The notes: a model not told the origin generated them from the sequence alone. A stretch of 34,918 nucleotides of DNA from Ignavibacteria bacterium (GCA_016873755.1 VGWB01000013.1:1-34918); one strand, 5' to 3'; counted from the first letter of the stretch, positions 958 to 21,764 are shown. Translations and numbers: made by a program.

Positions 958-1085
958 GGCCGGGCGTGGTCATTGTTCTGTTCGGCATTCCGGTGCACTT
1001 TGCTTCGAGAAAATTTTCCGGGATAAGGGCTTCCACGTCTTCTTCAACTTGATCGTCAAACACTATTCAAACGGTGGGAGAAACT

Positions 1086-2678: not shown

Positions 2679-2681
2679 CAC

Positions 2682-4415
2682 ATGAATAATCTCCCACACA
2701 GTTCCCATCAAGAACTGCCCTGGCGAATCATCCGCCTGGCTGTTCTCCTGTCAGTTCTCACTGTGCAATCTGGATGGGCACAAACTATGCAGGACCAGCG
2801 CGAGCCCCAGCTCACGAGGGCTGATACGCTTCGAGGGATGCTCACGCCACTGCGGACATGCTACGATATCACGTACTACCACCTCGACGTCCGGATCGAT
2901 CCGGCAGCACAGTTCCTGAAGGGCTCGAACACGATCTTCTTCACTGCTGCGGATGATTTCGACAGGTTGCAGGTCGACCTTTTCAGCAATATGAAGATCG
3001 AAAGGATTGTCCTCGACCGGGACATGGCAGCAACGTTCACACGAGAACTCAACGCGGTGTTCGTTAAGCTCCCGGAACAAGTTCCCAAGGGGTCACGGCA
3101 TTCGCTGCGAATCGAGTACTCCGGCAACCCGATTGTCGCAAGGAGGCCTCCGTGGGACGGTGGTTTCACGTGGGAACGCGACAAAGCGGGAAATCCGTGG
3201 GTCGTCGTGACGTGTCAGGGAACAGGAGCCAGTCTCTGGTGGCCAAACAAAGATCATCAGGCAGATGAACCTGACAGTATGCTCGTCAGCATCACGGTAC
3301 CGCCCGGTCTGGAGGACATCTCCAACGGGCGCCTGCGAGCCCGCACGGTGCTGCCCGACGGCTGGACGAGGTTCGACTGGTTCGTGAGCTATCCCATCAA
3401 CAACTACAACGTTACGGTGAACATCGGCAAGTATGCCCATTTTCGCGAGTTCTACGTCAGCGGTGATACTCTGATACTCGATTACTATGTTATGCCTGAG
3501 AATCTCGAGAAGGCCAAAGTCACCTTCCGGCAAGTGAAGCCGATGATGGAGTGCTATGAGCGCTTCTTTGGGAAGTATCCGTTCTCCAAGGACGGTTACA
3601 AGCTAGTTGAGTGCCCCCACACGGGTATGGAGCATCAGAGTGCTGTCGCGTACGGCAACAGGTACCTCGGAGGATACCGCGGCCGGACCTGGTCGGAGGC
3701 GGGTTTGAAGTTCGATTTCATCATTCTCCACGAGAGCGCACACGAGTGGTGGGGGAACAGCGTCACCTCGAAAGACATCGCCGATATGTGGATCCACGAA
3801 AGCTTCGGGGCTTACGCCGAGGCGCTCTTTGTCGAGTGTCAATACGGCCGCGAGGAGTCGCTGAAATACATCAACGGGAAGAAGCCGAATGTCCTGAATG
3901 ACCGCCCGATCATCGGTGTCTACGACGTGCACAAGCGAGGCTCGGGAGACATGTACGATAAGGGGCAGTTGGTGCTCAACACGCTCCGCAGCGCCATCGA
4001 CGATGATCCACTCTGGTTCTCCATCCTTCGTGGCCTGGCAGAGACCTTCAAGTACCAGACGATCACCGCCGAGGATATCTTCACTTACATCAATAGAAGG
4101 ACAGGAAGAGATCTGAACTATTTCTTCGACCAATATCTGAAGAACACACAGATCCCACAGTTGGTCGTCGAGACATCGAAGAAAGGAGATCGCGTGCAGG
4201 CGCGGTTTCGATGGCAGGCAGATGTCAAGCATTTCCGCATGCCGATCAAGGTGACGACGGCACCGAGCACATACGAGTTCATCAACCCGACGACCGACTG
4301 GCAAACGATCGAACTTCATGGGCTGAAACCTGAGGATTTCCGCATCGCCGAAGATCTCTTCCTGGTGAACCTCAGACTCCGCTGGAGTTATCTCGATCCG
4401 GCTCTTCCTGATTGA
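2682..4415 (+). CDS. Exported M1-family zinc aminopeptidase
   Basis: A zinc metallopeptidase of family M1, 577 residues, with an N-terminal signal peptide (LAVLLSVLTVQSGWAQ). Residues about 55-270 form the saddle-like N-terminal beta domain. The catalytic domain holds the exopeptidase motif as TGMEHQ (instead of GAMEN) and the zinc site HESAH at 350-354 with the third ligand Glu373 in WIHESFGAYAE, exactly the HExxHx18E spacing. The large C-terminal helical domain of the roughly 850-residue members is absent, as in many FCB-group short forms. The start follows the GH51 stop by 3 bases. Placement between an arabinosidase and the arabinose transporter suggests joint attack on glycoproteins, but that role is inference. 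Peptide specificity cannot be read from sequence. Confidence 0.9.
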   Translation: MNNLPHSSHQELPWRIIRLAVLLSVLTVQSGWAQTMQDQREPQLTRADTLRGMLTPLRTCYDITYYHLDVRIDPAAQFLKGSNTIFFTAADDFDRLQVDLFSNMKIERIVLDRDMAATFTRELNAVFVKLPEQVPKGSRHSLRIEYSGNPIVARRPPWDGGFTWERDKAGNPWVVVTCQGTGASLWWPNKDHQADEPDSMLVSITVPPGLEDISNGRLRARTVLPDGWTRFDWFVSYPINNYNVTVNIGKYAHFREFYVSGDTLILDYYVMPENLEKAKVTFRQVKPMMECYERFFGKYPFSKDGYKLVECPHTGMEHQSAVAYGNRYLGGYRGRTWSEAGLKFDFIILHESAHEWWGNSVTSKDIADMWIHESFGAYAEALFVECQYGREESLKYINGKKPNVLNDRPIIGVYDVHKRGSGDMYDKGQLVLNTLRSAIDDDPLWFSILRGLAETFKYQTITAEDIFTYINRRTGRDLNYFFDQYLKNTQIPQLVVETSKKGDRVQARFRWQADVKHFRMPIKVTTAPSTYEFINPTTDWQTIELHGLKPEDFRIAEDLFLVNLRLRWSYLDPALPD

Positions 4416-4700
4416 ACAACAGGATGTGTATGCGATGCCGAGCCGTTCCATTTGCGGAACGAAGGAGCGGATCGGCGCTTGACGTGTTCCCGCGCCGGTT
4501 TTCTGCTTGATTTTGCGGGTATGTCGACGCATCTTTGATCGGTCTTTGCGTCCATTGCTCAATGCAATCCCCACACCGGACAATTCAGACACCCATCTCT
4601 GTTCTACTCGGTTACGTCAGAGCTTCTCTCCGCTGCTGGTGTGACAGAGGCATTCGTCTGACGGGAATCGTTACCGAATAACCTGCTGGAAGGAATACAT

Positions 4701-6455
4701 ATGAGTGTACTCCATACACTGGACTGGCTGGTCATCCTCGGGTATTTCGGCATCATCCTTGCACTAGCGTGGTGGGCGATCAAAAGACAACAACGAACCT
4801 CGGACGGATACTTCCTGGCAGGCCGCAATCTCGGGTGGTTCGTTGTCGGGGCGTCCATTTTTGCCTCCAACATCGGCTCCGAACACCTCGTTGGATTAGC
4901 GGGCTCCGGGGCCACAGATGGGGTCGCCATGGCCCATTACGAACTCCATGCTTGGTGCCTTCTCGTTCTGGGATGGATCATGGTTCCGTTCTACATACGC
5001 TCAAGAGTCTTCACGATGCCCGAGTTCCTCGAGAGGCGATTTTCTCCAACGGCAAGGACTGTTCTTTCAGCAATTTCCCTGGTCGCGTATGTCCTGACGA
5101 AAATCGCGGTGGGTGTATTTGCCGGCGGTGTGGTGTTCGCTGTCTTGCTCCCCGATGTCAACTTGTTCGGCATGGATAGCTTCTGGGTCGGCTCCATCCT
5201 CGTCATTGTCGTTACCGGGCTCTACACAGTGCTCGGTGGAATGAGAGCAGTCGCCTATACGGAAGCTCTTCAAACCATCGTCCTGATCACCGGCTCAGCT
5301 CTCGTGACGGTGTTTGGCCTGAACGCATTGGGTGGTTGGTCTGAACTCCGTGCAATCGCCGGTTCCGAGATGTTCAATCTCTGGAAGCCGCTCGTCCCGG
5401 CTGGCATCGAGGGAACCTGGGCGCCGGTCAAGGAGGCGGGCAGAATGGCATGGTACTTCAATGACAACTATCCGTGGCTGGGCATGCTCTTCTGTGCTCC
5501 GATCATCGGGCTCTGGTATTGGTGCACTGATCAATACATCGTTCAGCGAGCACTATCTGCCCCCAACGAGACACAAGCGCGACGCGGTTCCATATCGGCG
5601 TCGTTCTTCAAGCTACTGCCCGTGTTCATCTTTATTATTCCAGGGATCATCTGCTACGCGCTCGCAGTAAGCGGCAAAGTGCCGGCCTTGCAGCAGCAAC
5701 TGATCGGTCCCGATGGACAGATCATTCGGGACAACGCGCAGCAAGCTTTTCCCCTGATGGTGGCGAATGTGCTCCCGATCGGTGTTCGCGGAATCGTTGT
5801 TGCGGGTCTACTGGCGGCACTCATGAGTTCGCTGGCGGGCGTATTCAATGCCTGCTCGACACTGTTCACGATCGATTTCTACTCGCGGATCAAGAAAAAT
5901 GTAACCCAGGAAAGACTGGTATGGGTTGGAAGGGTCGCGACCACCGTCATGGTCTTGATCGGACTGATGTGGCTTCCGGTTATCCGCGGCGGGAAGGGCT
6001 TGTATGACTACCTGCAGGGAGTGCAGGCGTATCTGGCGCCGCCAATTTTCGTTGTATTCTTCCTTGGAGTCTTCCACAAACGCCTGAACGCGAAAGGTTG
6101 CCTTGCCGCCCTCTATACAGGTTTTATTCTGGGTTTGCTCCGGCTCGCCATCGACACCCCAGTGAAGATGATCGAGGATTTTGAATACACCGAGGGCACG
6201 TTCCTTTGGATTATGAATAACGTTTTCTTTCAGTACTACAGTCTCTTCATCTTCGTCGTCTGCACGGTGGTCATGGTTGGAGTCAGCTACCTCACTGACG
6301 CGCCGGCATACGACAAAATTACCGGGTTGACGTACGGAACGGTGACGGAAGAGCACAAGAAGGGGTCAAGAGCCAGCTGGAACAGGTGGGACGTCATCTC
6401 GTCTGCAACCGTTTTGCTGCTGATCCTTGCGGCATATTTGTACTTCGTCGGTTGA
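4701..6455 (+). CDS. Sodium:solute symporter (SGLT-like), probable arabinose importer
   Basis: An integral membrane protein of the SSS family, 584 residues with about 13-14 hydrophobic segments. It imports a sugar with Na+. Family features include DGYFLAGRNLGWFVVGASI with SNIGSEHLVGLAGSG in the first helices, the loop TMPEFLERRF, and VVAGLLAALMSSLAGVFN near the middle, as in vertebrate SGLT and bacterial vSGLT. A clear GGAAGGA lies just upstream of the ATG. The 285 bases before it carry no recognised gene or promoter. The gene is followed after 37 bases by ribulokinase, so L-arabinose is the likely substrate. That is a context inference; galactose or other monosaccharides remain possible. Confidence 0.88.
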   Translation: MSVLHTLDWLVILGYFGIILALAWWAIKRQQRTSDGYFLAGRNLGWFVVGASIFASNIGSEHLVGLAGSGATDGVAMAHYELHAWCLLVLGWIMVPFYIRSRVFTMPEFLERRFSPTARTVLSAISLVAYVLTKIAVGVFAGGVVFAVLLPDVNLFGMDSFWVGSILVIVVTGLYTVLGGMRAVAYTEALQTIVLITGSALVTVFGLNALGGWSELRAIAGSEMFNLWKPLVPAGIEGTWAPVKEAGRMAWYFNDNYPWLGMLFCAPIIGLWYWCTDQYIVQRALSAPNETQARRGSISASFFKLLPVFIFIIPGIICYALAVSGKVPALQQQLIGPDGQIIRDNAQQAFPLMVANVLPIGVRGIVVAGLLAALMSSLAGVFNACSTLFTIDFYSRIKKNVTQERLVWVGRVATTVMVLIGLMWLPVIRGGKGLYDYLQGVQAYLAPPIFVVFFLGVFHKRLNAKGCLAALYTGFILGLLRLAIDTPVKMIEDFEYTEGTFLWIMNNVFFQYYSLFIFVVCTVVMVGVSYLTDAPAYDKITGLTYGTVTEEHKKGSRASWNRWDVISSATVLLLILAAYLYFVG

Positions 6456-6492
6456 TGCTGAAGCGCTGCCCGTACCAGAAAAGGCATGAACA

Positions 6493-8187
6493 ATGCAGAA
6501 TGAACAGTTTGTGATCGGCGTTGATTTCGGAACGGACTCTGTCCGCTCAGTTATTGTACGTGCCGCTGACGGGAGTGAAATCTCGGGCTCTGTGTTCTCC
6601 TTTCCTCGCTGGACAGAAGGGAAGTACTGCGACCCTGTGATAAATCAGTTCCGCCAACATCCCTTGGATCACATTGAGGGACTGGAGGTGACGATCCGCG
6701 AGGCGCTGCGATCTGCGCCGAAAGGGATCGCCGAGGACATCCTCGGTCTCTCCGTTGATACGACGGGGTCTACACCGGTCGCGGTCAATCGGCAGGGGAT
6801 GCCGCTGTCGTTGACTCCAGGATTTGAAGAGAATCCGAATGCGATGTTCATTCTGTGGAAAGACCATACTGCGGTGAAGGAGGCGGAGGAAATCAACCGG
6901 CTCGCCCATACGTGGGGTGGAATCGACTTCACCAAGTACGAAGGTGGTGTATATTCCTCCGAATGGTTCTGGGCAAAACTCCTTCACGTGCTGCGCGAGG
7001 ATCCCGCGGTCCGCGACGCGGCCTTCTCCTGGGTTGAAAATTGCGACTGGATCCCTGCACTTCTCACGGGCAACACCGACCCTCTCGTTTTGAAGCGCAG
7101 CCGGTGCGCTGCAGGGCACAAGGCGATGTGGCACCCATCGTTCGACGGGCTACCATCAGAGGAATTCCTCGTCAAGCTCGATCCGCTTCTGAAAGGTTTG
7201 CGGGATCGACTGTATAAAGACACCTACACGAGTGATGCGGTTGTGGGTACGCTTGCTGCCGAGTGGGCTTCCCGTTTCGGACTTACGACCAGGGTGAAGG
7301 TCGGTGTCGGCGCGTTCGACGCTCACATGGGAGCGGTTGGCGGCGAAATCCGGCCCTACCACATGACGAAGATCATGGGAACATCGACGTGCGATATGCT
7401 GGTGGTTCCGCAAACCGAGCTTGGGGACAAGACAGTCAGAGGCATATGCGGGCAGGTGGATGGATCGATCATTCCCGGCATGATCGGCCTTGAAGCAGGC
7501 CAGTCGGCGTTCGGTGATGTCTATGCGTGGTTCAAGGATATCTTGATGTGGCCGCTTGAGATTATCGTTGCCAGGAGCCCGCTTCTGACGCCGCAGGTGC
7601 GGGATGCTCTACTGGCAGACGCGTCGGACAGGCTGATTGCCGAGCTTTCCCGAGAGGCGGAGCAGATTCCCCTGGATGTCTCCGGGGGACTCGCGCTTGA
7701 CTGGATGAATGGGAGGAGAACACCGGACGCGAATCAGATGCTCAAGGGGGCCATCACGGGACTCAGTCTCGGAAGCGATGCGCCCCGGATCTTTCGCGCC
7801 CTGGTTGAGGCGACCGCCTTCGGCGCGAAGAAGATTGTGGAAAGGTTCCGATCTGAGGGGGTACGGATTGACGGCGTCATCGCACTCGGCGGCGTCGCGA
7901 GGAAATCTACCTTCATCATGCAGGTAGTTGCGGATGTGCTAAATGCATCCATCGTGGTCCCGCGCTCCGAGCAAACCTGCGCCCTGGGGGCATCGATGTT
8001 TGCTGCGACCGTCGCCGGCATCTACCCGACCGTCGAAGAAGCGAAGAAAGCAATGGGCAGCGGCTTCGACATCGAGTATCGCCCGAATGCAGAGAACGCA
8101 AAGAAGTATGAGTATCTGTATCAGCGTTACTGCCGGTTGGGTGACTTCATCGAACAGGAGATCACGACTCAGAGGAGCAAGGCATGA
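6493..8187 (+). CDS. araB: L-ribulokinase
   Basis: Cytoplasmic FGGY-family kinase that phosphorylates L-ribulose to L-ribulose 5-phosphate in arabinose catabolism. It has 564 residues, the usual AraB length. The phosphate-binding start GVDFGTDSVRSVIV is typical of AraB rather than of xylulose or glycerol kinases. The long AraB insert (YCDPVINQFRQHPLDHIEGL) is present. The catalytic Asp is Asp276 in GVGAFDAHMGAVGG, and the second ATPase domain has ALGGVARKSTFIMQVVAD. The last four bases overlap the araD start (ATGA), which implies translational coupling. Nothing looks damaged. Confidence 0.95.
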   Translation: MQNEQFVIGVDFGTDSVRSVIVRAADGSEISGSVFSFPRWTEGKYCDPVINQFRQHPLDHIEGLEVTIREALRSAPKGIAEDILGLSVDTTGSTPVAVNRQGMPLSLTPGFEENPNAMFILWKDHTAVKEAEEINRLAHTWGGIDFTKYEGGVYSSEWFWAKLLHVLREDPAVRDAAFSWVENCDWIPALLTGNTDPLVLKRSRCAAGHKAMWHPSFDGLPSEEFLVKLDPLLKGLRDRLYKDTYTSDAVVGTLAAEWASRFGLTTRVKVGVGAFDAHMGAVGGEIRPYHMTKIMGTSTCDMLVVPQTELGDKTVRGICGQVDGSIIPGMIGLEAGQSAFGDVYAWFKDILMWPLEIIVARSPLLTPQVRDALLADASDRLIAELSREAEQIPLDVSGGLALDWMNGRRTPDANQMLKGAITGLSLGSDAPRIFRALVEATAFGAKKIVERFRSEGVRIDGVIALGGVARKSTFIMQVVADVLNASIVVPRSEQTCALGASMFAATVAGIYPTVEEAKKAMGSGFDIEYRPNAENAKKYEYLYQRYCRLGDFIEQEITTQRSKA

Positions 8188-8885
8188 ATACCTTTGGAGA
8201 CCTCAAAGAGCAGGCGTGGGAGAGCAATCTGGAGCTCCATCGTCTGGGTCTCGTCGTTCAGACCTTTGGCAACGTCAGCGCTTTTGATCCCGCTCAGGGT
8301 GTCTTTGCGATCAAACCGAGCGGCGTGCTGTACGAAAAGCTGCTCGTGGACGACATGGTGGTGCTCGATCTCCAGCTCAACGTGGTCGAGGGAAAGCTGA
8401 AGCCATCATCCGATACGAAGACTCACGCTGTGCTCTACAGGAATTTCCCTGAGATCGGCGGGATCGCGCACACGCATTCACCGTACGCCGTCGCCTGGGC
8501 ACAGGCGATGAAACCGATCCCGATCCTTGGAACGACACACGCTGACTTCCTTGCGATGGATATCCCTTGCACTGAGGTCATGAGCGATGAGATGATCAAG
8601 GGAGATTACGAAGAAGAAACGGGAAATCTCATCGTCAGGCGTTTTGCCGATCTCTCCTACAAGGAGACCGAGATGGTGCTCGTTGCGAACCACGGACCGT
8701 TCACGTGGGGCAGCACAACGGCAAGAGCGGTTGAGAATAGCCACATGCTTGAAGAGATCGCGAAGATGGCGCTGCTGACCCTTCAGGTAGATCCAAACAC
8801 TCCGAAGCTGACGGGGCCGCTCGTCGACAAGCATTACGAGCGAAAACATGGCGCGCAGGCATACTATGGGCAAAAGGACAATTAG
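8184..8885 (+). CDS. araD: L-ribulose-5-phosphate 4-epimerase
   Basis: Class II aldolase-fold zinc enzyme that converts L-ribulose 5-phosphate to D-xylulose 5-phosphate, feeding the pentose phosphate pathway. It has 233 residues, as expected. Family motifs are GNVSAFDP, IKPSGVLYEKL, and the metal-binding HTHSPYAVAWAQ (His96, His98), with the third ligand His170 in ANHGPFTWG. The C-terminal KHYERKHGAQAYYGQ is typical of AraD rather than of fuculose aldolase. It starts inside the araB stop codon, and the isomerase follows 11 bases later, so these three form a tight operon. Confidence 0.95.
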   Translation: MNTFGDLKEQAWESNLELHRLGLVVQTFGNVSAFDPAQGVFAIKPSGVLYEKLLVDDMVVLDLQLNVVEGKLKPSSDTKTHAVLYRNFPEIGGIAHTHSPYAVAWAQAMKPIPILGTTHADFLAMDIPCTEVMSDEMIKGDYEEETGNLIVRRFADLSYKETEMVLVANHGPFTWGSTTARAVENSHMLEEIAKMALLTLQVDPNTPKLTGPLVDKHYERKHGAQAYYGQKDN

Positions 8886-8896
8886 GAGACGGAGCG

Positions 8897-10375
8897 ATGG
8901 AAAATGTGCCGAGTATTACGATGGGTATTCTGGCAGTAAGCCGGGATTGCTTCCCGAGTGAGCTGTCGAGCAAACGAAGAACGATGGTCGTTGAGGAGTG
9001 CAAGAAGCAGCAGGTTGCTGTTGCCGAGCTTGAGACCATTATCGAACGCGATGCAGACATCGCCAAGGCCCTGGATGAGATCCGCTCGAAGAAGGTCAAT
9101 GCACTCGTTCTCTATTTGGGTAACTTTGGTCCGGAGGGCCCAACCACTCTGCTCGCGAAGAAGTTCGACGGGCCGGTGATGTTGGTCGCAGCCGCCGAGG
9201 AATCCGGCAAGGATCTGTTCGGCGGGAGAGGGGACGCGTACTGCGGCTTGCTCAGTGCATCGTACAATGTGGGATTGAGGAGTCTGAACGTCTACGTTCC
9301 ACGCGAACCCGTCGGCTCGCCCGCCGAGGTTGCCGGAATGATTGCCGAGTTCCATCCGATCGCCAGGGTCGTGATAGGTGCACGGCACCTGAAGATATTC
9401 ACCTTCGGCCCCAGGCCGTACGACTTCCTCACATGCCACGCGCCCATCAAGCCGTTGTTCGATATGGGCATCGAGATCATGGAGAACAGCGAGCTGGATA
9501 TGTACGATATCTTCCTCTCAGCCAAGGATGATCCTCGTATCCCCAAGGTGGCGGACGAGATGTCGAAAGAGCTCAGTCGCGGGAATACGTACCCGGAGCT
9601 GCTCCGCAAGCTCGCACAATTCGAAATCGCGCTGCTGGATTTCAAGAACAAACACCTCGGCGCGTCGAAGTATGCTGTCTTCGCCAACAAGTGCTGGCCG
9701 GCGTTTGAAAAGTACTTTGGGTTTGTCCCTTGTTTCATCAATTCTAGACTTGCCACGCGCGGCATCCCGATCTCCTGCGAAGCGGATATCTACGGCGCGC
9801 TGAGCGAATACATGGCCACCTGCGCGACCGGTCTGCCTGCCACACTGCTCGATATCAACAATACTGTCCCCAAAGACATCTTCAACGAGGCGAAACGTGA
9901 GGTAAAGGACTATCGTCCAAAAGAGCTTTTCATGGGATTCCACTGCGGCAACACATCTTCCTCCTGCGTTGTCTCGGGGAGTATGAAATACCAGCTTATT
10001 ATGCATCGGTTGATGGAGCCCGGAAAGGACCCGAACATCACGCGCGGGACGCTGGAGGGGCAGATTCGTCCGGGCGACACCACGATCTTCAGACTCCAAT
10101 CTACCCCCGAAGCCGACCTTCGTGCTTATGTCGCAGAGGGAGAGATCCTCAATGTCGATCCGAAGTCCTTCGGATGTATCGCTGTATTTGCCATTCGCGA
10201 AATGGAGCGATTCTACCGCCACGTTTTGATCGAGAAGAGATTCCCCCATCATACTGCAGTAGGGTTCGCCCACAGCGGACGGAGTTTGTGGGAAGCGACA
10301 AAGCTCCTTGGGGTGAAAGATCTTTCGTTCAACCGCCCGGCGGGAAATTTGTACGCCGACGAGCATCCATTTTAG
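8897..10375 (+). CDS. FucI-like sugar isomerase, probable L-arabinose isomerase
   Basis: A 492-residue protein of the L-fucose / L-arabinose isomerase superfamily. It would convert L-arabinose to L-ribulose, the step missing in this operon. It is not canonical AraA. The N-terminal part (MGILAVSRDCFPSEL) and the catalytic part resemble the FucI branch. Glu295 in CEADIYGAL and Asp319 in LLDINN are 24 residues apart, the same spacing as the Mn-binding Glu337 and Asp361 of E. coli FucI. The third ligand is probably one of the His in PHHTAVGFAH (residues 451-459). FMGFHCGNTSSSC is also conserved-looking. GGAG precedes the ATG. The position directly after araB-araD is the main reason for the arabinose assignment; L-fucose or D-arabinose isomerase would be the alternatives. 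Confidence 0.8.
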   Translation: MENVPSITMGILAVSRDCFPSELSSKRRTMVVEECKKQQVAVAELETIIERDADIAKALDEIRSKKVNALVLYLGNFGPEGPTTLLAKKFDGPVMLVAAAEESGKDLFGGRGDAYCGLLSASYNVGLRSLNVYVPREPVGSPAEVAGMIAEFHPIARVVIGARHLKIFTFGPRPYDFLTCHAPIKPLFDMGIEIMENSELDMYDIFLSAKDDPRIPKVADEMSKELSRGNTYPELLRKLAQFEIALLDFKNKHLGASKYAVFANKCWPAFEKYFGFVPCFINSRLATRGIPISCEADIYGALSEYMATCATGLPATLLDINNTVPKDIFNEAKREVKDYRPKELFMGFHCGNTSSSCVVSGSMKYQLIMHRLMEPGKDPNITRGTLEGQIRPGDTTIFRLQSTPEADLRAYVAEGEILNVDPKSFGCIAVFAIREMERFYRHVLIEKRFPHHTAVGFAHSGRSLWEATKLLGVKDLSFNRPAGNLYADEHPF

Positions 10376-10404
10376 AGGGGTGCTGAAGAACTCCATCTTA
10401 TGTC

Positions 10405-10501
10405 ACACCCGCGAAAGCGGGTGTCCAGGACTAAGCCTTTTCTGGATTCTCCCGACGCAAGGCGTGGGGAGTTCGCTCGGCCGCCTGTCTGCCTCAGGCG
10501 G
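10405..10501. repeat. Intergenic element with two perfect hairpins
   Basis: Between the isomerase and the GH127 gene lie two perfect stems. The first pairs 10405-10412 (ACACCCGC) with 10417-10424 (GCGGGTGT) around a GAAA tetraloop. The second pairs 10481-10487 (CCGCCTG) with 10495-10501 (CAGGCGG). Neither is followed by a T-run, so they do not look like intrinsic terminators. The first resembles widespread short palindromic intergenic repeats with a GCGAAAGC core. Function is unknown; they could protect the upstream mRNA end or separate the two transcription units. Confidence 0.55.
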
Positions 10502-10605
10502 AGAACAACATTGCAGGATCTAGCAGCATCCTGCCAAGAGGCTGTCAGCAGCTGACCGGAGGCCTGCAACTATTGCCTACACAGATGCTTCTAAAGGATA
10601 CGTCA

Positions 10606-12972
10606 ATGAGGGAAAACGCAAGACTTCCGGGGTCACTGACTTTGCGAGTGAACCTTGTTGTGGCCCTCTTGTTCACTGGTTCCTACATATCGTTAGCTGG
10701 TGGGACGCGTGTGAAAAACTCGGAAGACAAACCTGTTGTTCAGCGGGTTCATGCGTTCGACCTGAAACAGGTTCGTTTGCTGAACGGACCCTTGAAGCAG
10801 GCGACGGAAAGAAATCAGAAGTACCTCCGCGGGCTCGAGCTCGATCGCTTGCTCCATAATTTCAGGGTGACGGCCGGCCTGCCGTCAAGCGCTGAGCCGC
10901 TCGGAGGGTGGGAGAGCCCGACGACCGAGCTACGTGGTCACTTCGTTGGACACTTCCTCACGGCGTGTGCTCTGATGTATGCAAGCTTTGACGATCACGT
11001 GCTGAAAGCCAAGGGAGATACTGTTGTCGCTGAGCTGGCGAAATGTCAACACGCGCTCGGTAGCGGCTATTTGAGCGGATATCCGGAAGAGTTCATTGAC
11101 CGCGTCGAGACGGGACAGCGAGTATGGGCGCCATGGTATACGCTCCACAAGATCTATGCTGGCTTGCTGGACATGTATCTGCTCACAGGAAATAAACAGG
11201 CGCTGGAGGTTGTCAAGTCGATGGCCGACTGGGCGAAGAGACGAACGGACCGGCTTGACGACGAAGCAATGCAGCGGATGCTCAAGGTCGAATTCGGTGG
11301 GATGAGCGAGGTGCTCTTCAACCTGTACGCAACTACCGGGGATCCTAACCATATGGCTCTCGCCCGCCGGTTTGAGAAGCGTGAATTCCTCGATCCACTG
11401 GCCGATCACGTGGACAAACTCAGAGGTCTCCACGTCAACACGCACATACCACAGGTGATCGGTGCAGCGCGAGGATATGAGATCACGGGCGAGCCGACCG
11501 ACAGGAAAATCGCGCTGTATTTCTGGGCGCAGATCGCAAACGCCCGCTCGTATGCAACCGGCGGGACAAGTTGGGGGGAAGTTTGGGGAGGTGATCCGTA
11601 CCACCTTGCCACACAGCTCGGGACGTCAAACCAGGAAAGCTGCACGTCGTACAACATGCTCAGGCTCACCTCGTACCTCTTCTCATGGGAACCCGATCCG
11701 GCATATGCGGACTACTACGAGTTGCTGTTTCTGAACGGCATTCTCCCCACGCAGAATCCCGGCGACGGCATGTTGATGTACTATCTGCCGCTTGGCTCGG
11801 GATGGTACAAGACCTTCGGGACGGGGCGCAACTCGTTCTGGTGCTGTACCGGCACCGGTGTAGAATCGTTTGCCAGGCTCGGGAGCGATATCTACTATCA
11901 CGACGAGAGCAACCTCTACGTCAATCTCTTCATACCATCTGAAGTCCGGTGGATTGAAAAGGACGTAAAACTTCGCCAGACGACCGATTTTCCTCGGAAA
12001 GCTCGGACTCAACTGCTTGTTCAAACCGGAAAGCCTGTCGTCTTCTCGCTGAATGTCCGGATCCCAAAATGGAGTGCGACCGGAGCGCGCGTGCTCATCA
12101 ACGGTCGCGAGATCGGAGCGACCTCGAGCCCGGGAAGCTTCCTAATGCTCAAGCGCACGTGGAAGAACGGCGATCGCGTCGATGTTGAATACGCTATGGA
12201 CCTGCACCTGAAGCCCCTGCCGGATAACCCCAGGATTGCCGCGATCATGTACGGCCCGCTCGTGCTCGCCGGCAGACTCGGTTCGGAGGGCCTCACGGAC
12301 AGCCTCGCCCACGGCTTCTACGGCCCCTCCAGTGAGCCGGTCCTGACCCCCTGCCTTATTGTGGAAGATCCAAACGTGAAGTCCTGGGTCACACCGGTCA
12401 GCGGAAAGCCATTGACGTTTCGCACAAGGGGTGTCGGCGTACCCCGCGACGTCGAGTTGAGCCCGATCCATGAGCTCTTCGATGAGTGCTATGCTGTCTA
12501 CTGGACGATCTACAGGAAGAAGGAATGGGATGAGGCGAAGAAACGAAGCGAGATGTCGATCGGTCAGACGGTTGACGCTGTTGTGATGGGCGACTCCGTT
12601 TCAGCCAAAGCCCACAACATGGTAGGTTCCGGCACAGAAACTGGAAGCGATGCAGGGAGGAGTTGGATCCGCACGCAGAACTGGATGGAGTACTCACTGA
12701 AGGTCCTCGTGGATCGTCCTGTGCTCTTCGGATGCACGTGGCTGAAGGGTGATACTGCGCGGGCGTATACCATTCGTATCGACGGTGTAAGGCTCTCGAT
12801 CGTACCTGAGGTCACCGAATTACCCGATGGTTTCGTGGAAGAGCGCTACGAGCTTCCGCTCGCTGTCACCTTCGGCAGGCACACGGTGACGGTCACATTC
12901 GAGAGCCACCGGGGGGTGCTGGGGAGGAAGCTTCTCGGTTGTTCTATTGTCGGGTCGGCGCGCGAGAGGTGA
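10606..12972 (+). CDS. Exported beta-L-arabinofuranosidase, GH127
   Basis: A GH127 (DUF1680) enzyme that removes beta-L-arabinofuranose, the linkage found on hydroxyproline-rich plant glycoproteins and some pectin side chains. About 788 residues. A signal-like N-terminus (VNLVVALLFTGSYISLAGG) precedes the (alpha/alpha)6 barrel. The cysteine-zinc catalytic site is present: Glu344 and Cys346 in NQESCTSYN and Cys413-Cys414 in FWCCTGTG, with Glu325 in WGEVW as the likely acid/base. These correspond to Glu338, Cys340, Cys417/418 and Glu322 of HypBA1. Extra C-terminal beta regions follow. The ATG at 10606 has AAAGGA 7 bases upstream and gives a clean signal peptide; TTG at 10573 and ATG at 10585 do not. 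It is separated from the isomerase by the hairpin element. Confidence 0.9.
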   Translation: MRENARLPGSLTLRVNLVVALLFTGSYISLAGGTRVKNSEDKPVVQRVHAFDLKQVRLLNGPLKQATERNQKYLRGLELDRLLHNFRVTAGLPSSAEPLGGWESPTTELRGHFVGHFLTACALMYASFDDHVLKAKGDTVVAELAKCQHALGSGYLSGYPEEFIDRVETGQRVWAPWYTLHKIYAGLLDMYLLTGNKQALEVVKSMADWAKRRTDRLDDEAMQRMLKVEFGGMSEVLFNLYATTGDPNHMALARRFEKREFLDPLADHVDKLRGLHVNTHIPQVIGAARGYEITGEPTDRKIALYFWAQIANARSYATGGTSWGEVWGGDPYHLATQLGTSNQESCTSYNMLRLTSYLFSWEPDPAYADYYELLFLNGILPTQNPGDGMLMYYLPLGSGWYKTFGTGRNSFWCCTGTGVESFARLGSDIYYHDESNLYVNLFIPSEVRWIEKDVKLRQTTDFPRKARTQLLVQTGKPVVFSLNVRIPKWSATGARVLINGREIGATSSPGSFLMLKRTWKNGDRVDVEYAMDLHLKPLPDNPRIAAIMYGPLVLAGRLGSEGLTDSLAHGFYGPSSEPVLTPCLIVEDPNVKSWVTPVSGKPLTFRTRGVGVPRDVELSPIHELFDECYAVYWTIYRKKEWDEAKKRSEMSIGQTVDAVVMGDSVSAKAHNMVGSGTETGSDAGRSWIRTQNWMEYSLKVLVDRPVLFGCTWLKGDTARAYTIRIDGVRLSIVPEVTELPDGFVEERYELPLAVTFGRHTVTVTFESHRGVLGRKLLGCSIVGSARER

Positions 12973-13217
12973 CTGGTGCACGTCGCCAAGGGCAATCCTG
13001 TACTCTTGCCCCCAGGGCTGTCCAGAATGCCCGACCGACTGAGCAGTCGTTTGGGCTGACAGGGAACCGAGTGTGCTCAAACTTGTAGAAAGATTCATGA
13101 TTTGTTCCGACATTTGACGGGGTCAGTGGCGAGTCCACTTGCCCAGCCGGAATCGCTTCGGGGCAATCCAGCTCGTATCTAGGTCAGTAGTCCGCAGACT
13201 CCGTTGGAGAAATCGAC

Positions 13218-13685
13218 ATGATCAACGCTGATCTCAACACGATCGAGGGGCGTGTCTACCCCGCGCGGCGAAAAACGCAAAATCTTGTGGGCGGCGCATC
13301 TCCAATACAGGCGAGGAGCTTTTGCCTGGGGTATGTCACGCTTGAGCCGCGCGGCGGCCAGGTCCCATGGCACAATCAGGAGCAGGAGGAAGTCTACTTT
13401 GTCCTTGAAGGAACAGGAGAAATGTGTCTTGGAGACGAGCGCCGGACCATGTCTGCAGGGCAGGTCGTTTACATTCCTCCTAACGTGTTCCATCAATTGA
13501 CGAATATCGGGGAGACGCCTCTGCGGATGATCTATTGCTACGGTCCCGCCGGAGACGTGGCGCACTGGCGGCAGGAGCTTGATGGGACATTGCCTCGCGC
13601 AGGGATCGAAGCCCCGCCACTGCCGCAAGGAGCTTCACCTCAGCATCACAAGAAACCGGAGACCCACCAAAATCAATCATCTTGA
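13218..13685 (+). CDS. Small cupin-domain protein
   Basis: A 155-residue single-domain cupin with no signal peptide. The first cupin motif is WHNQEQEEVYFVLEGTG (His52, Glu56/57) and the second is PPNVFHQLTN (His92), so a metal site is likely, though the usual HxH of motif 1 is reduced to one His. The last 35 residues are low-complexity and polar, probably disordered. GGAGA lies 7 bases before the ATG. Its stop overlaps the possible TTG start of the oxidoreductase downstream, which suggests a pair working together on a sugar or sugar acid. Such cupins can be isomerases, lyases or sensors; the specific activity cannot be assigned. Confidence 0.8.
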   Translation: MINADLNTIEGRVYPARRKTQNLVGGASPIQARSFCLGYVTLEPRGGQVPWHNQEQEEVYFVLEGTGEMCLGDERRTMSAGQVVYIPPNVFHQLTNIGETPLRMIYCYGPAGDVAHWRQELDGTLPRAGIEAPPLPQGASPQHHKKPETHQNQSS

Positions 13686-13705
13686 CGTCCTCTCTGAACG
13701 ACTCT

Positions 13706-14866
13706 ATGGAAAAAACCCGAGTGCGTAATGTGGGTGTTATTATGAATGGCGTGACAGGTCGCATGGGAATGCGCCAGCACCTCGTTCGATCCATCCTGGC
13801 CATCCGTGAGGAGGGAGGTGTGAAGACGAAGTCGGGAGAACGCGTCGTGCCTGACCCGATACTCGTCGGAAGGAGTGAAGCCAGGCTAAAAGATCTGGCA
13901 GCGGAGCACCAGGTGGCGAAATTCTCGACGGAATTGGACACGTGCCTCGCGGATCCACACTATACGATCTACTTTGATTCGCAGGCGACGAACCAACGCG
14001 CCGAGAGCCTGACTAGGGCCATACAGGCAGGAAAGGCAGTGTATTGCGAGAAACCCGTTGCCTCGAACCTCGACGAGGCTTTGATGTTGTGCCGACTTGC
14101 GGCGAGTGCGGGTGTGAAAAACGGAGTCGTTCAAGATAAGTTGTGGCTGCCTGGTATCCTGAAACTGAAAAGTCTCATCGAGTCGAAATTCTTCGGGAAG
14201 ATACTCTCCGTACGCGGCGAATTCGGATACTGGATCTTTGACGGGTCGGTGCAGCCAGGTCAACGACCTTCATGGAACTATCGCAAGGAGGATGGGGGCG
14301 GTATTATCACGGACATGTTTTGCCACTGGCGTTACCTGATCGACGACCTCTTCGGGAACCTCAGAGCGCTCTCCTGTTTGGGCGCGACACACGTCGGCAG
14401 CCGGATCGACGAACAGGGGAGGACGTATCGTTGCACGGCTGATGATGCAGCGTATGCGACGCTCGTCTGTGACACCGGCGTCATTTGCCAGATCAATTCC
14501 TCCTGGTCTGTCCGGGTACGCCGCGATGATCTTCTCACGCTTCAGGTCGACGGAACAGCCGGCTCCGCCGTCGCCGGCCTCCAGCGATGCTATGTCCAGC
14601 AGGCATCGGAAACCCCGGCGCTCGTCTGGAATCCAGACATCGAGAATCCCTTCGACTACTACGGTGGTTGGCAGGAGGTGCCGTCGGCTGTGCCCTACCC
14701 GAATGCGTTCAAAGCTCAGTGGGAGTTGTTCTTGAAGCACGTTGTCGAGGACGAACCGTTTCCATGGTCTTTTCGCGAAGGTGCCAAAGGAATTCAACTG
14801 GCCGAACTTGCCCAGCGAAGCTGGTCGGACCGGCGATGGGTTGACGTTCCCGAGTTGAAGATCTGA
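13706..14866 (+). CDS. Gfo/Idh/MocA-family oxidoreductase
   Basis: An NAD(P)-dependent sugar or polyol dehydrogenase of the Gfo/Idh/MocA family, about 386 residues. The N-terminal nucleotide-binding motif is NVGVIMNGVTGRMG, and the family motif EKP sits at residues 115-117 (GKAVYCEKPVAS). The C-terminal alpha/beta substrate domain is complete. I prefer ATG 13706, which places the Rossmann strand at the usual distance from the start. TTG 13682 would overlap the cupin stop by 4 bases and add eight residues; neither start has a good ribosome site. It is the last gene of the arabinose block and is followed by a terminator. The substrate is unknown; a pentose-derived product is a guess from context. 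Confidence 0.85.
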   Translation: MEKTRVRNVGVIMNGVTGRMGMRQHLVRSILAIREEGGVKTKSGERVVPDPILVGRSEARLKDLAAEHQVAKFSTELDTCLADPHYTIYFDSQATNQRAESLTRAIQAGKAVYCEKPVASNLDEALMLCRLAASAGVKNGVVQDKLWLPGILKLKSLIESKFFGKILSVRGEFGYWIFDGSVQPGQRPSWNYRKEDGGGIITDMFCHWRYLIDDLFGNLRALSCLGATHVGSRIDEQGRTYRCTADDAAYATLVCDTGVICQINSSWSVRVRRDDLLTLQVDGTAGSAVAGLQRCYVQQASETPALVWNPDIENPFDYYGGWQEVPSAVPYPNAFKAQWELFLKHVVEDEPFPWSFREGAKGIQLAELAQRSWSDRRWVDVPELKI

Positions 14867-18656: not shown

Positions 18657-19529
18657 ATGAGCATCCCTGGGCTGATGATCATCGGTGAATCGATCAACGA
18701 CTCTGTGCCGTCTACGCATGCTCTGTTCGAAGAGAACAACATAGACGGGATTGTCGCGTTGGCCAGATCGCAAGCCGAAAAAGGCGCGGCCTATATCGAT
18801 GTCAATGTCGGACCCCGAACGCCGGCATTCATGGCGGATGTGGTCAAGAGAATTCAAAAGCATGTTTTGCTCCCCCTCTCGATTGACACCCCTGATCCTG
18901 AGATCGCGGCTGCAGGGTTGGAAGCATACGATTCTGAACGTGCGGAGAAACGGGAGCCGATTCTGAACTCAATCTCTGAAGCGCGCGTGGAGATGTTCGA
19001 TCTCTACGCCCGCCAACCGTTCATTCCCATTCTGCTTATTACTGAGGGGATGGATGCGTCCGGTGAAGTGATAATGAGCAGAACGGCTGAACAGAACCTT
19101 GCGACAGCAGAGTCGCTGGTGAGTCTAGCCCGGAGCCGAATTGATGGCATCGCCAACGACCAGATCATTCTCGATCCTGGGATCATGCCCATTGGAAGTG
19201 ATTCAAAAGGGGATCTCAGGCGGCTCATGCGTGCGATGGCTCTGATTCATGAAGACAATGATCTCGCCGGCATCAACATGTCGGTCGGATTGAGCAACTT
19301 CACAACGATGTTGCCTTCGAAGAGGGCAGACGGTTCACCGCTGAAGGCGCCGCTCGAAAGCGCATTTCTCACGATGTCGATGCCGATGGGATTGAATACG
19401 ATCATCGGTTCAGTAAACCGGAAATACTCACTCCTGCCAGATGATCATCCGGCGATGCAATGTCTGAGAGATGTGCTGAAGCTGGAGGGGGTTGACGCTG
19501 TGATGAGAGTAATGATGTATTTCACGTAA
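18657..19529 (+). CDS. Methyltetrahydrofolate methyltransferase-like protein (AcsE/MetH folate domain)
   Basis: A 290-residue TIM-barrel protein of the pterin-binding (DHPS-like) family. It is most like the methyl-H4folate:corrinoid methyltransferase AcsE and the folate domain of MetH. These move a methyl group between H4folate and a B12 protein. Visible motifs are IIGESIN, YIDVNVGP, LSIDTPDP, ILNSISEAR, IILDPGIMPIG and NMSVGLSNFTTMLP, all in the expected order. A strong GGGAGG precedes the ATG. Downstream genes encode a MetV-type protein, MetF and a corrinoid protein, the set of partners needed for methyl transfer. In this context the likely reaction is methyl-corrinoid plus H4folate giving methyl-H4folate, or the reverse; direction is inference. 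Confidence 0.85.
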   Translation: MSIPGLMIIGESINDSVPSTHALFEENNIDGIVALARSQAEKGAAYIDVNVGPRTPAFMADVVKRIQKHVLLPLSIDTPDPEIAAAGLEAYDSERAEKREPILNSISEARVEMFDLYARQPFIPILLITEGMDASGEVIMSRTAEQNLATAESLVSLARSRIDGIANDQIILDPGIMPIGSDSKGDLRRLMRAMALIHEDNDLAGINMSVGLSNFTTMLPSKRADGSPLKAPLESAFLTMSMPMGLNTIIGSVNRKYSLLPDDHPAMQCLRDVLKLEGVDAVMRVMMYFT

Positions 19530-19596
19530 GTCACCAGCGACGGCACACCCATGGACACCAGATGAAGCGAAACTGAGACGACAAAAGGAAATAGCC

Positions 19597-20025
19597 TTGT
19601 TGAGAGACATTGCCACGGTGAACAAGCCTCCTCTGGGTGCGAACGAACGAAGACTCCCACGTCTTGTGCGCTTCTTCGAAGATATCGTGAAGGTGCCGTT
19701 ATTTCGCTGCCAACGTTGCGGTGAGTGCATCCTCTCCTCGACGGCCTTCATTTGTTCTCAGAATTGTCCGAAACGGATGCGCAATGGTCCGTGTGGGGGA
19801 ACGCGTGACGACGGTTCGTGTGAGGTGTACCCCGACCGCGCGTGCGTGTGGTACAAGATCTATGTTCGATCAAGACTGCTGAATCGAGTCAGCTTGTTGT
19901 ACAGATTCAACAGGATCCACAACTGGAACCTGGAAGGCACCTCATCGTGGCTAAACGTCCTCAGGAAGCGGATTGAGTCGCCGATCTGGTTTGTGCGTGA
20001 TGACCAACGAGACATGAGGCCGTGA
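19597..20025 (+). CDS. MetV-type zinc/Fe-S protein (MTHFR C-terminal domain family)
   Basis: A 142-residue cysteine-rich protein with the PF12225-type motif set: CQRCGEC (Cys38, 41, 44), CSQNCPK (Cys53, 57), RNGPCGG (Cys66), CEV (Cys75) and CVWYK (Cys83). In acetogens the homologous MetV partners MetF in methylene-H4folate reductase and helps link it to ferredoxin or other electron carriers. The start is a TTG with AAGGAA 6 bases upstream; no ATG fits. It lies 6 bases before MetF, so the two are surely co-expressed. The N-terminal 30 residues and basic C-terminus look ordinary for the family. Confidence 0.85.
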   Translation: MLRDIATVNKPPLGANERRLPRLVRFFEDIVKVPLFRCQRCGECILSSTAFICSQNCPKRMRNGPCGGTRDDGSCEVYPDRACVWYKIYVRSRLLNRVSLLYRFNRIHNWNLEGTSSWLNVLRKRIESPIWFVRDDQRDMRP

Positions 20026-20031
20026 TCGCAG

Positions 20032-20928
20032 ATGACGTTGAAGGAAAAGATCGAGTCGAATCGCTTCATCGTCTGTGGAGACATCGGGCCGCCACAGAGC
20101 TGCGACGGTGATGTCGTACGAGAGAAGGCGAGGCATTTCAAGGGCTACGTCGACGCGGTGAATATCACCGACAACCAGACGGCGATCGTCCGCTTGTCGA
20201 GCATCGCCTCGGCAAAGATCCTGTTGGACGAAGGGGTCGAGCCCATCATGCAGATGACATGCCGAGACCGCAACCGTTTGGCGATCCAGAGCGATCTGCT
20301 CGGTGCCGCAGCGTTGGACATCCTGAATGTGCTCTGCCTGACCGGCGACCATCAGAAATTCGGCGATCAACCCGAGGCCAAAGGCGTGTTCGACCTGGAT
20401 TCGATCCAACTCATCGCTACCGTCTCTCAAATGAACAGGGGATTCCTGCTTTCCGGATATGAAATGAAGAAAGCGCCGAGATTTCTGATCGGTGCGGCAG
20501 CGAATCCGTTCGCTCAACCGTTCGATATGCGCATCATTCGGCTGCAGAAGAAGATTGAAGCAGGCGCACAGTTTATTCAGACGCAGCCGGTCTTTGACCT
20601 GGTAAGCTTCACGCGGTGGATGGAACGAGTGGTCGCTTTGGGCCTTCACGAAAGAACGGCCATCCTCGCCGGAGTCATGCCGGTGAAGTCACCAAAGACC
20701 TTCCTTTGGATGAAAGAGGAAGTACCCGGCGTAAAGATCAAGGACGAATATGTTGAGAGAATGAGGCTTGCGCGCGATCCGGAGGAGGAGGGCGTCAGGA
20801 TGGCGGTTGAGATCATTCAGGCGCTCAGAGGTGTGAAAGGTGTTCGCGGGATCCATCTGATGCCGGTATTGTGGGAGAGTATCACGCCTGCGGTCATCAG
20901 GGAAGCGGGGTTGAAGGAGAGGGGATAG
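20032..20928 (+). CDS. metF: Methylenetetrahydrofolate reductase
   Basis: A 298-residue TIM-barrel flavoprotein interconverting methylene- and methyl-H4folate. Family features are VCGDIGPPQSCDGD near the start, VNITDNQ, IMQMTCRDRNRLAIQSDLLGA, VLCLTGDH, FLIGAAANPF and AGAQFIQTQPVFD. The divergent, acetogen-like start (IGPP in place of EFFPP) goes with dependence on the MetV partner encoded just upstream. With the flanking methyltransferase and corrinoid protein it would either oxidise incoming methyl groups to methylene-H4folate or supply methyl groups. It is followed by a repeat-like gap before the corrinoid gene. Confidence 0.9.
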   Translation: MTLKEKIESNRFIVCGDIGPPQSCDGDVVREKARHFKGYVDAVNITDNQTAIVRLSSIASAKILLDEGVEPIMQMTCRDRNRLAIQSDLLGAAALDILNVLCLTGDHQKFGDQPEAKGVFDLDSIQLIATVSQMNRGFLLSGYEMKKAPRFLIGAAANPFAQPFDMRIIRLQKKIEAGAQFIQTQPVFDLVSFTRWMERVVALGLHERTAILAGVMPVKSPKTFLWMKEEVPGVKIKDEYVERMRLARDPEEEGVRMAVEIIQALRGVKGVRGIHLMPVLWESITPAVIREAGLKERG

Positions 20929-20954
20929 TGCTGGTCTCGCACGTTGGAGTCTTC

Positions 20955-21046
20955 AACGCAAAGGCGCAGAGTGCGCGGAGAATCACGGAGTGAAATGGTG
21001 AAATCCTCTGCGGTGCTCCGCGTTTTCCACGTCTTCGCCTTGAGAA
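20955..21046. repeat. Interlaced inverted-repeat element
   Basis: Three short segments reappear as reverse complements in the same gap: AAGGCG (20961-20966) with CGCCTT near 21036-21041, CGCAGAG with CTCTGCG, and CGCGGAG with CTCCGCG. The order means the second and third pairs cross rather than nest. It looks like the GC-rich intergenic repeats found in many copies in some genomes. It separates metF from the corrinoid gene, so it may affect relative expression. Confidence 0.5.
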
Positions 21047-21089
21047 CTAGAAGTGGATTGATCTGAGAACGAAACTTCGGAGAATGGTC

Positions 21090-21764
21090 ATGCAGGAAAT
21101 CATTGAGAGGATCGCCATGTGCATTGCTCGAGGCAAAGTCTCTAGATCATCCTGGTTCCCACCTCATATGAAAGACCAGGACGGCGCGGACGAAATTGCT
21201 GCTGAAGCGTTGAGGAACGGCGTTCAACCGGGTGTCCTCCTGGAGGGCTGCATGCTTGGGATGGATAGAATCGGGAAGGAGTTGGGTGAGAACAGAGCGT
21301 TTGTGACCAATCTGATCATCTCCGCCGAGGCCATGAACGCCGTTATGAAACACATCAAACCATTCCTGGAATCGGGTGAGGTGAAGAGCAAAGGAACCTT
21401 TGTCATTGGGACTGTCTCGGGACACGTGCATGATATCGGCAAGAATCTCGTATCGATGATTATCAGAGGCGGCGGATTCGAAGTGATCGATCTCGGTGTG
21501 GATGTGCCAACGAAGAAATTTCTTGACGCGATTTCCCAACACCCGGCGTCTTTCGTCGGCCTATCTGCCTTGCTGACGACGACCATGCGCAACATGCAAA
21601 ACAGCCTCAAAGCCATCAAGCAAGCTCATCCTAACATAAAGGTATTGGTCGGTGGCGCTCCTCTCACACAAGATTTTTGCACTCGCATAGGCGCTGATTT
21701 CTACTCACCCAACCCGCATGAGGCGGTGGAGTATCTGAATAAGCACGTCTCAGGGACTCCCTGA
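21090..21764 (+). CDS. Corrinoid (B12-binding) methyl carrier protein
   Basis: A 224-residue two-domain corrinoid protein of the MtaC/MtbC/MttC type: a helical cap (residues about 30-90, LEGCMLGMDRIGKELG) and a Rossmann B12 domain. The cobalt-binding loop reads GTVSGHVHDIGKN. His114 is the cobalt ligand, but His112 replaces the Asp of the normal DxHxxG motif. LGVDVPTKKFLDAI, VGLSALLTTTM and VLVGGAPLTQDF complete the fold. The ATG at 21090 has GGAGA 6 bases upstream; ATG 21084 lies too close to it. It is the expected methyl shuttle for the methyltransferase and MetF upstream. No cognate substrate methyltransferase (MtaB/MttB type) is visible nearby. Confidence 0.87.
   Translation: MQEIIERIAMCIARGKVSRSSWFPPHMKDQDGADEIAAEALRNGVQPGVLLEGCMLGMDRIGKELGENRAFVTNLIISAEAMNAVMKHIKPFLESGEVKSKGTFVIGTVSGHVHDIGKNLVSMIIRGGGFEVIDLGVDVPTKKFLDAISQHPASFVGLSALLTTTMRNMQNSLKAIKQAHPNIKVLVGGAPLTQDFCTRIGADFYSPNPHEAVEYLNKHVSGTP

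Follow-up and report, generated by a model that had tools for sequence, protein, structure and literature searches.

The window analysed here, a stretch of 34,918 nucleotides from an Ignavibacteria bacterium (GCA_016873755.1, VGWB01000013.1:1-34918), carries at positions 18657-21764 a cassette of four genes, encoding a methyltetrahydrofolate methyltransferase (MeTr), MetV, MetF and a corrinoid carrier. We think it likely that this cassette encodes the downstream part, common to several substrate enzymes, of a three-component corrinoid methyltransferase system with dispersed genes, in a bacterium that does not fix carbon by the Wood-Ljungdahl pathway. With this system, a sediment bacterium degrading plant polymers probably removes the methyl groups of methanol and other methylated compounds and loads them onto folate. 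The genome has a single stand-alone methyltransferase II (MT II) and a single corrinoid activase, the cassette is conserved among relatives, and the substrate enzymes co-occur with the activase across genomes.

The four-gene cassette and its relatives

MeTr (18657-19529, 290 aa), MetV (19597-20025, 142 aa, with a TTG start), MetF (20032-20928, 298 aa) and the corrinoid protein (21084-21764, 226 aa) stand together on the + strand throughout, as the earlier note had described, and are separated by 67, 6 and 155 bp. MeTr matches Pterin_bind (1.9e-14) and is far better described by the PRK07535 model of methyltetrahydrofolate:corrinoid/Fe-S methyltransferases (6.9e-32) than by the MetH model (5.8e-10). 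It is predicted to act as a stand-alone MT II, moving methyl groups from a corrinoid to tetrahydrofolate (H4folate). MetV, the partner of methylene-H4folate reductase (MTHFR), matches DUF5981 (PF12225, the MetV/MTHFR C-terminal family; 5.5e-26), and MetF, the catalytic subunit of this reductase, matches PF02219 (1.4e-33). The corrinoid protein is a stand-alone methyl carrier with both the four-helix and the B12 domains (B12-binding, 7.9e-26; B12-binding_2, 1.5e-10), and its top NCBIfam match is MtgC_2, a glycine-betaine corrinoid protein. Cassette scores lie below the NCBIfam cut-offs; hence the families are secure whereas the exact subtypes are not.

Residues D77, N104, D173 and N214 of MeTr, which we take to be folate-site residues with the roles they have in AcsE/MeTr, are unchanged across six orthologues. 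O-demethylase-type components are found among the closest solved relatives of both MeTr and the corrinoid protein. The nearest chains to the latter are 1y80, 7xcn_M and 4jgi, and the nearest structures to MeTr are 4o0q, 4o1e and 4o1f, which are complexes with H4folate and methyl-H4folate (as cited in PMC13222342).

We searched 294 genomes of the class for orthologues of MeTr, and the close ones (68-79% identity) are confined to the same family. The four genes occur in identical order in four genomes of one neighbouring genus (G246, G208, G174 and G255), with 77-79% identity for MeTr and 75-78% for the corrinoid protein. MetV orthologues are 65-74% identical and hold the same position, and those of MetF are 75-84% identical. 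Since this order is kept in the neighbouring genus and in metagenome-assembled genomes (MAGs) of several other lineages, the cassette is not a chance assembly. In two further genomes (G212 and G181) the cluster consists of MeTr-MetV-MetF only, the corrinoid gene being absent. In another (G264, L036:8495-9014), MeTr is a pseudogene, with a large deletion and frame breaks, beside an intact MetV-MetF pair.

A scan of GTDB representatives returned 181 MeTr relatives, and we read the neighbourhoods of the best 80 of these. They include MAGs labelled Ignavibacteria, KSB1, Calditrichota, Neomarinimicrobiota, Aminicenantes, Planctomycetes, Verrucomicrobia and Hydrogenedentes, as well as a few Bacillota. 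Around these 80 MeTr genes we found a corrinoid protein in at least 34 cases, formate-H4folate ligase (FTHFS) in at least 33, UroD in at least 16, a homocysteine methyltransferase in at least 16 and MttB in at least one, while MetV, MetF or a MetVF fusion lies nearby in at least roughly half of the loci. Many contigs stop close to MeTr, so that the true numbers may be higher. Outside the genus the cassette is physically joined to substrate enzymes, as MeTr-MetV-MetF-Corr-UroD (L046), UroD-MeTr (L047, L061), UroD-Corr-MetVF-MeTr-FTHFS (L100) and MttB-Corr-MetVF-MeTr (L103, a Verrucomicrobia MAG). A second type of cluster, type B (L037, L038, L039, L041), associates UroD, a corrinoid protein, a MetVF fusion, a MeTr about 33% identical to ours and RACo; a homocysteine methyltransferase is present in three of the four, and a 420-aa protein without Pfam match adjoins RACo. 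FTHFS stands immediately 3' of MeTr in L071, L080, L083, L085, L099 and other loci from Planctomycetes, Verrucomicrobia and Bacillota MAGs, which suggests methyl oxidation to formate in these organisms.

The frame of MetV is open upstream as far as 19516, and its true start may lie upstream since orthologues have about 150 aa. The gap between MetF and the corrinoid gene (20929-21083, unstranded) contains an inverted repeat that is short and imperfect; the pattern scan stayed at background level and showed nothing resembling a terminator there on the + strand, and among relatives this gap ranges from an overlap up to 136 bp. Promoter and terminator scans gave nothing above background, and the Rfam search of the window gave no match. 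To the left of the cassette lies an L-arabinose/arabinan cluster (1074-14866) with an alpha-L-arabinofuranosidase, an SSF symporter, an FGGY kinase, a class II aldolase, a fucose-isomerase-like protein and GH127.

Substrate methyltransferases and activase elsewhere in the genome

The earlier note had described a cassette without substrate methyltransferase, and without carbon monoxide dehydrogenase/acetyl-CoA synthase (CODH/ACS), MtaB or MttB. This holds for the window, where none of these turned up among the proteins scanned. As regards the substrate methyltransferases, it does not hold for the genome, which encodes MtaB, MttB, about 12 UroD homologues and RACo. The genome is a MAG of 376 contigs, with an estimated completeness of 96.9% and a contamination of 2.48%, and we searched it family by family. 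A complete methanol locus, UroD-MtaC-MtaB, lies on contig C34 (L155:9628-12839) and is kept in several relatives; the MtaB match reaches 534 bits, with the UroD gene and an MtaC-like corrinoid gene directly upstream. One MttB-family gene (279 bits) is found on C29; it has no in-frame stop, i.e. it is of the non-pyrrolysine type, and its product is nearest to the glycine betaine methyltransferase (9yce/2qne). It adjoins an amino-acid permease, downstream of a histidine-ammonia-lyase-like gene (L006:6678-12255), and one might guess at a link to a trimethylated histidine derivative. UroD-family matches number 13, one of them HemE-like.

The only RACo/RamA-type activase of the genome, with Fer2, middle and ASKHA domains, is on C21. 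There it lies in an operon-like run with the genes for rhamnulokinase and rhamnose isomerase, UroD, GH78, GH3, a permease and a further UroD; G208, G246 and G174 share the order except for GH3 and the last UroD. Taken together, the two C21 stretches (L007:773-11073 and L011:3824-8479) associate three UroD genes with rhamnose catabolism, GH78, GH3 and RACo in a single run. A locus on C208 (L158:1814-6035) contains a corrinoid protein 51% identical to that of the window, a stand-alone methionine-synthase-activation-like protein, a ribokinase, a lyxose isomerase and UroD; it may form a methyl-sugar module of its own, served by a different activase. The genome has no stand-alone PRK07535-type protein other than the window MeTr, the second match being a domain of MetH. 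Near UroD genes we also observed a recurring family of proteins of 600-800 aa (39-43% identity; L155:12852-15245, L156:6353-8182, L061:700-2877), without Pfam match where scanned.

These genes also go together across genomes. In a set of 35 genomes, those with RACo have 2-21 UroD matches and the 20 without it have 0-6 (Mann-Whitney p=3e-5, a value that overstates the evidence because the genomes are related and not independent). Where the cassette is complete, in five genomes, UroD matches number 13-20, and RACo and MtaB are each present once per genome. The genome with the broken MeTr, G264, has a single UroD match and lacks a stand-alone corrinoid protein, RACo and MtaB, a pattern that would follow if MeTr had no use in the absence of donors.

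The surroundings of the UroD genes hint at the donors. We read the context of 9 of the 12 non-HemE genes. Among 55 neighbouring proteins, the 25 most frequent Pfam families include GH3, GH78, RhaA, FGGY, SSF, ROK, PfkB, GH38 and sugar-binding or permease families; among 69 control proteins from nine arbitrary stretches of the same genome, the 25 most frequent include no carbohydrate-use family. Naturally, this test is coarse, as it compares the 25 most frequent of 70 and 111 families found, and RhaA is counted twice (one gene in two stretches). This sugar placement is partly syntenic in relatives. Rhamnose, GH3, GH38 and sugar-transport genes surround the UroD genes, which makes O-methyl sugars or glycosides candidates for the methyl donor. 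In an alignment of distant sequences, two of nine UroD proteins have the His-Cys-Cys zinc site associated with S-methyltransferases (PMC10418091) and seven deviate from it, which is compatible with oxygen substrates. A PDB search with one UroD protein, from C21, gave no match.

One may speculate, tentatively and with the odds against it, that the dispersed UroD proteins are corrinoid-dependent O-demethylases of methyl sugars or methoxylated glycosides, each in the cluster of its own sugar and all draining via one folate cassette. O-methyl-rhamnose would be the candidate substrate of the RhaK-RhaA-UroD-GH78-RACo locus. If true, this would be an oxygen-independent counterpart of oxidative methyl-sugar demethylation, and it would provide a testable function for many UroD-family proteins in glycan loci. 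Our literature search, whose coverage excluded most subscription journals, found no report of methyl-sugar demethylation by corrinoid/UroD enzymes.

Proposed fate of the methyl groups and competing explanations

In the scheme that we favour, a dispersed system with a common folate arm, MtaB (acting on methanol), the MttB homologue and UroD-type enzymes would transfer methyl groups to the Co(I) of a corrinoid protein, either that of the window or one of the two others that stand alone. From the corrinoid, the window MeTr would pass the methyl group to H4folate, MetF and MetV would oxidise methyl-H4folate to methylene-H4folate, and the latter would feed serine, purine and thymidylate synthesis or be oxidised further. 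The RACo/RamA-type enzyme of the rhamnose locus would re-reduce inactivated Co(II). This order, from substrate enzyme to Co(I), MT II and H4folate with rescue of Co(II) by an activase, is drawn by analogy from MtoABCD and from the Desulfitobacterium hafniense system; the direction of flow, the docking partners of the corrinoid proteins and the substrates are what we infer for this bacterium. The drainage of methyl groups from outside donors into H4folate, which the earlier note had proposed, is thus the most likely function, with plant-derived methoxyls or methanol as plausible donors. As the genome lacks FTHFS, the one-carbon (C1) units probably go to biosynthesis or to another oxidation route. 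The FTHFS gene that follows MeTr in many other phyla is consistent with the methyl group being run on to formate with a gain of ATP.

Several observations sit uneasily with this scheme. The cassette and the substrate enzymes are not adjacent in the genome, so their coupling is inferred, and in a fragmented MAG single contigs may be misassigned, although the genes for rhamnose/RACo, methanol and MttB are found again in relatives. G212 and G181 retain MeTr-MetV-MetF but lack RACo. G013 (C46) and G096, which belong to other families of the order, lack a stand-alone MeTr, yet both have RACo and MtaB, together with 21 and 12 UroD matches respectively. Hence these enzymes do not strictly need MeTr, and we dropped the reading that every genome with such methyltransferases depends on it. 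Finally, the window corrinoid protein has GHVHDIG where GDxHDIG is expected, i.e. HxHxxG, whereas the other 44 of the 45 corrinoid proteins compared have the Asp of DxHxxG. A single base would explain this difference, and the His is either a sequencing error or a real change.

This unique motif might mean that the cassette is decaying, with a corrinoid protein that no longer works for want of its conserved Asp and MetVF left for ordinary reductase duty. Decay does occur within the family, as the MeTr pseudogene of G264 testifies. Yet none of the four reading frames is broken, all are well conserved, and the single base could be an error of MAG assembly, which makes this explanation very improbable. 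The possibility that the cassette is dedicated to quaternary amines, via the MttB homologue of C29, has more in its favour: the MtgC_2 match of the corrinoid protein, the similarity of MttB to glycine betaine methyltransferase and the MttB-Corr-MetVF-MeTr operon of the Verrucomicrobia MAG all point to it. But UroD, not MttB, adjoins the cassette in L046, L047 and L061, and G174 and G255 have the full cassette and no MttB. Because of these two genomes we dropped the MttB-only reading, and we consider a dedication to quaternary amines unlikely.

Two classical pathways must also be weighed. MeTr, MetV and MetF are parts of the methyl branch of the Wood-Ljungdahl (acetogenic) pathway, and a complete pathway elsewhere in the genome had been named in the earlier note as what would overturn its interpretation. 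We looked for it: ACS (CdhC) was not found in the genome (CODH itself was not searched for separately), and neither was FTHFS, although the genome is about 96.9% complete. FTHFS was likewise not found in 32 of the 34 relatives searched, i.e. in 33 of 35 genomes overall. The carrier is moreover a single-chain, MtaC/MtgC-like protein and not the two-subunit corrinoid iron-sulfur protein, so that an acetogenic role is scarcely credible. The other candidate, also raised in the earlier note, is a split or alternative methionine synthase, in which MetF makes methyl-H4folate, MeTr methylates the corrinoid and methionine is formed by a homocysteine methyltransferase encoded apart. In its favour, MeTr and the corrinoid protein correspond to modules of MetH, those for folate and B12; at least 16 of the 80 related loci, and type B clusters, have a homocysteine-methyltransferase-like gene near MeTr; and the genome has a stand-alone S-methyl_trans gene on C35. 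However, it also encodes a full-length MetH (1185 aa, comprising the activation domain as well as those for homocysteine, pterin and B12) and a fusion of homocysteine methyltransferase with MetF, which already meet the need for methionine. The homocysteine module is absent from the cassette and from its close orthologues, and MeTr fits the MetH model poorly by comparison. This role is therefore improbable. With a complete MetH and neither ACS nor FTHFS, the cassette is accounted for neither by Wood-Ljungdahl metabolism nor by a missing methionine synthase.

Bacteria other than acetogens are already reported to carry many methyltransferases of this kind, with mtxB genes in about 1,700 MAGs from 19 bacterial phyla of one peatland (PMC10805028). 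The cassette suggests a destination for the methyl groups released by such enzymes. In anoxic soils and sediments, much C1 is present as methanol and methyl ethers from plant polymers. A common folate hub in polymer degraders that are not acetogens would allow the use of methyl groups without the Wood-Ljungdahl pathway, in competition with methylotrophic methanogens.

Comparison with known systems

Three-component O-demethylases (Moorella MtvABC, Acetobacterium Odm/Vdm, Desulfitobacterium hafniense, archaeal MtoABCD; PMC8630106, PMC3727330) share with this genome a UroD-superfamily substrate methyltransferase, a single-chain corrinoid protein, a pterin-binding MT II and a RACo-type activase. 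They are compact operons of acetogens, organohalide respirers and methanogens, whereas here MetVF accompanies MT II and the carrier, the remaining parts lie dispersed in the genome and ACS is lacking. The chloromethane system CdmBCA (PMC13222342) is also alike in its UroD-superfamily MT I, corrinoid protein and MT II modelled on 4O1E/4O1F, and unlike the cassette in being the compact operon of an acetogen acting on a haloalkane. The methanol:corrinoid system MtaBC is represented by the complete locus on a contig other than that of the cassette; no MT II gene lies beside it on the stretch read, and it presumably borrows the window MeTr. The C29 homologue is non-pyrrolysine like other members of the MttB superfamily (MtgB, MtpB, MtcB, MtyB), and the corrinoid protein is MtgC-like; unlike in that superfamily, no corrinoid gene was seen beside it.

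Type 1 mlp clusters (PMC10418091) resemble the present arrangement in having UroD-type methyltransferases, a corrinoid protein and a Ram/RACE activase, often without an adjacent H4folate methyltransferase. The Mlps have a His-Cys-Cys zinc site and a sulfur/selenium context (PMC10418091). We rejected an assignment to these clusters, as seven of the nine UroD proteins deviate from that site and their contexts are mostly sugar loci. MetH has homologous folate and B12 modules, the cassette being devoid of its homocysteine and activation modules. Biochemically, the cassette is of a known type. What is new is the dispersed layout and the possible substrates, with a hub of MT II, MetVF and carrier and with UroD enzymes placed in glycan loci. 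Its membership in the bacterial corrinoid methyltransferase world, with an unusual dispersed layout, a folate hub and no acetogenesis, is well supported.

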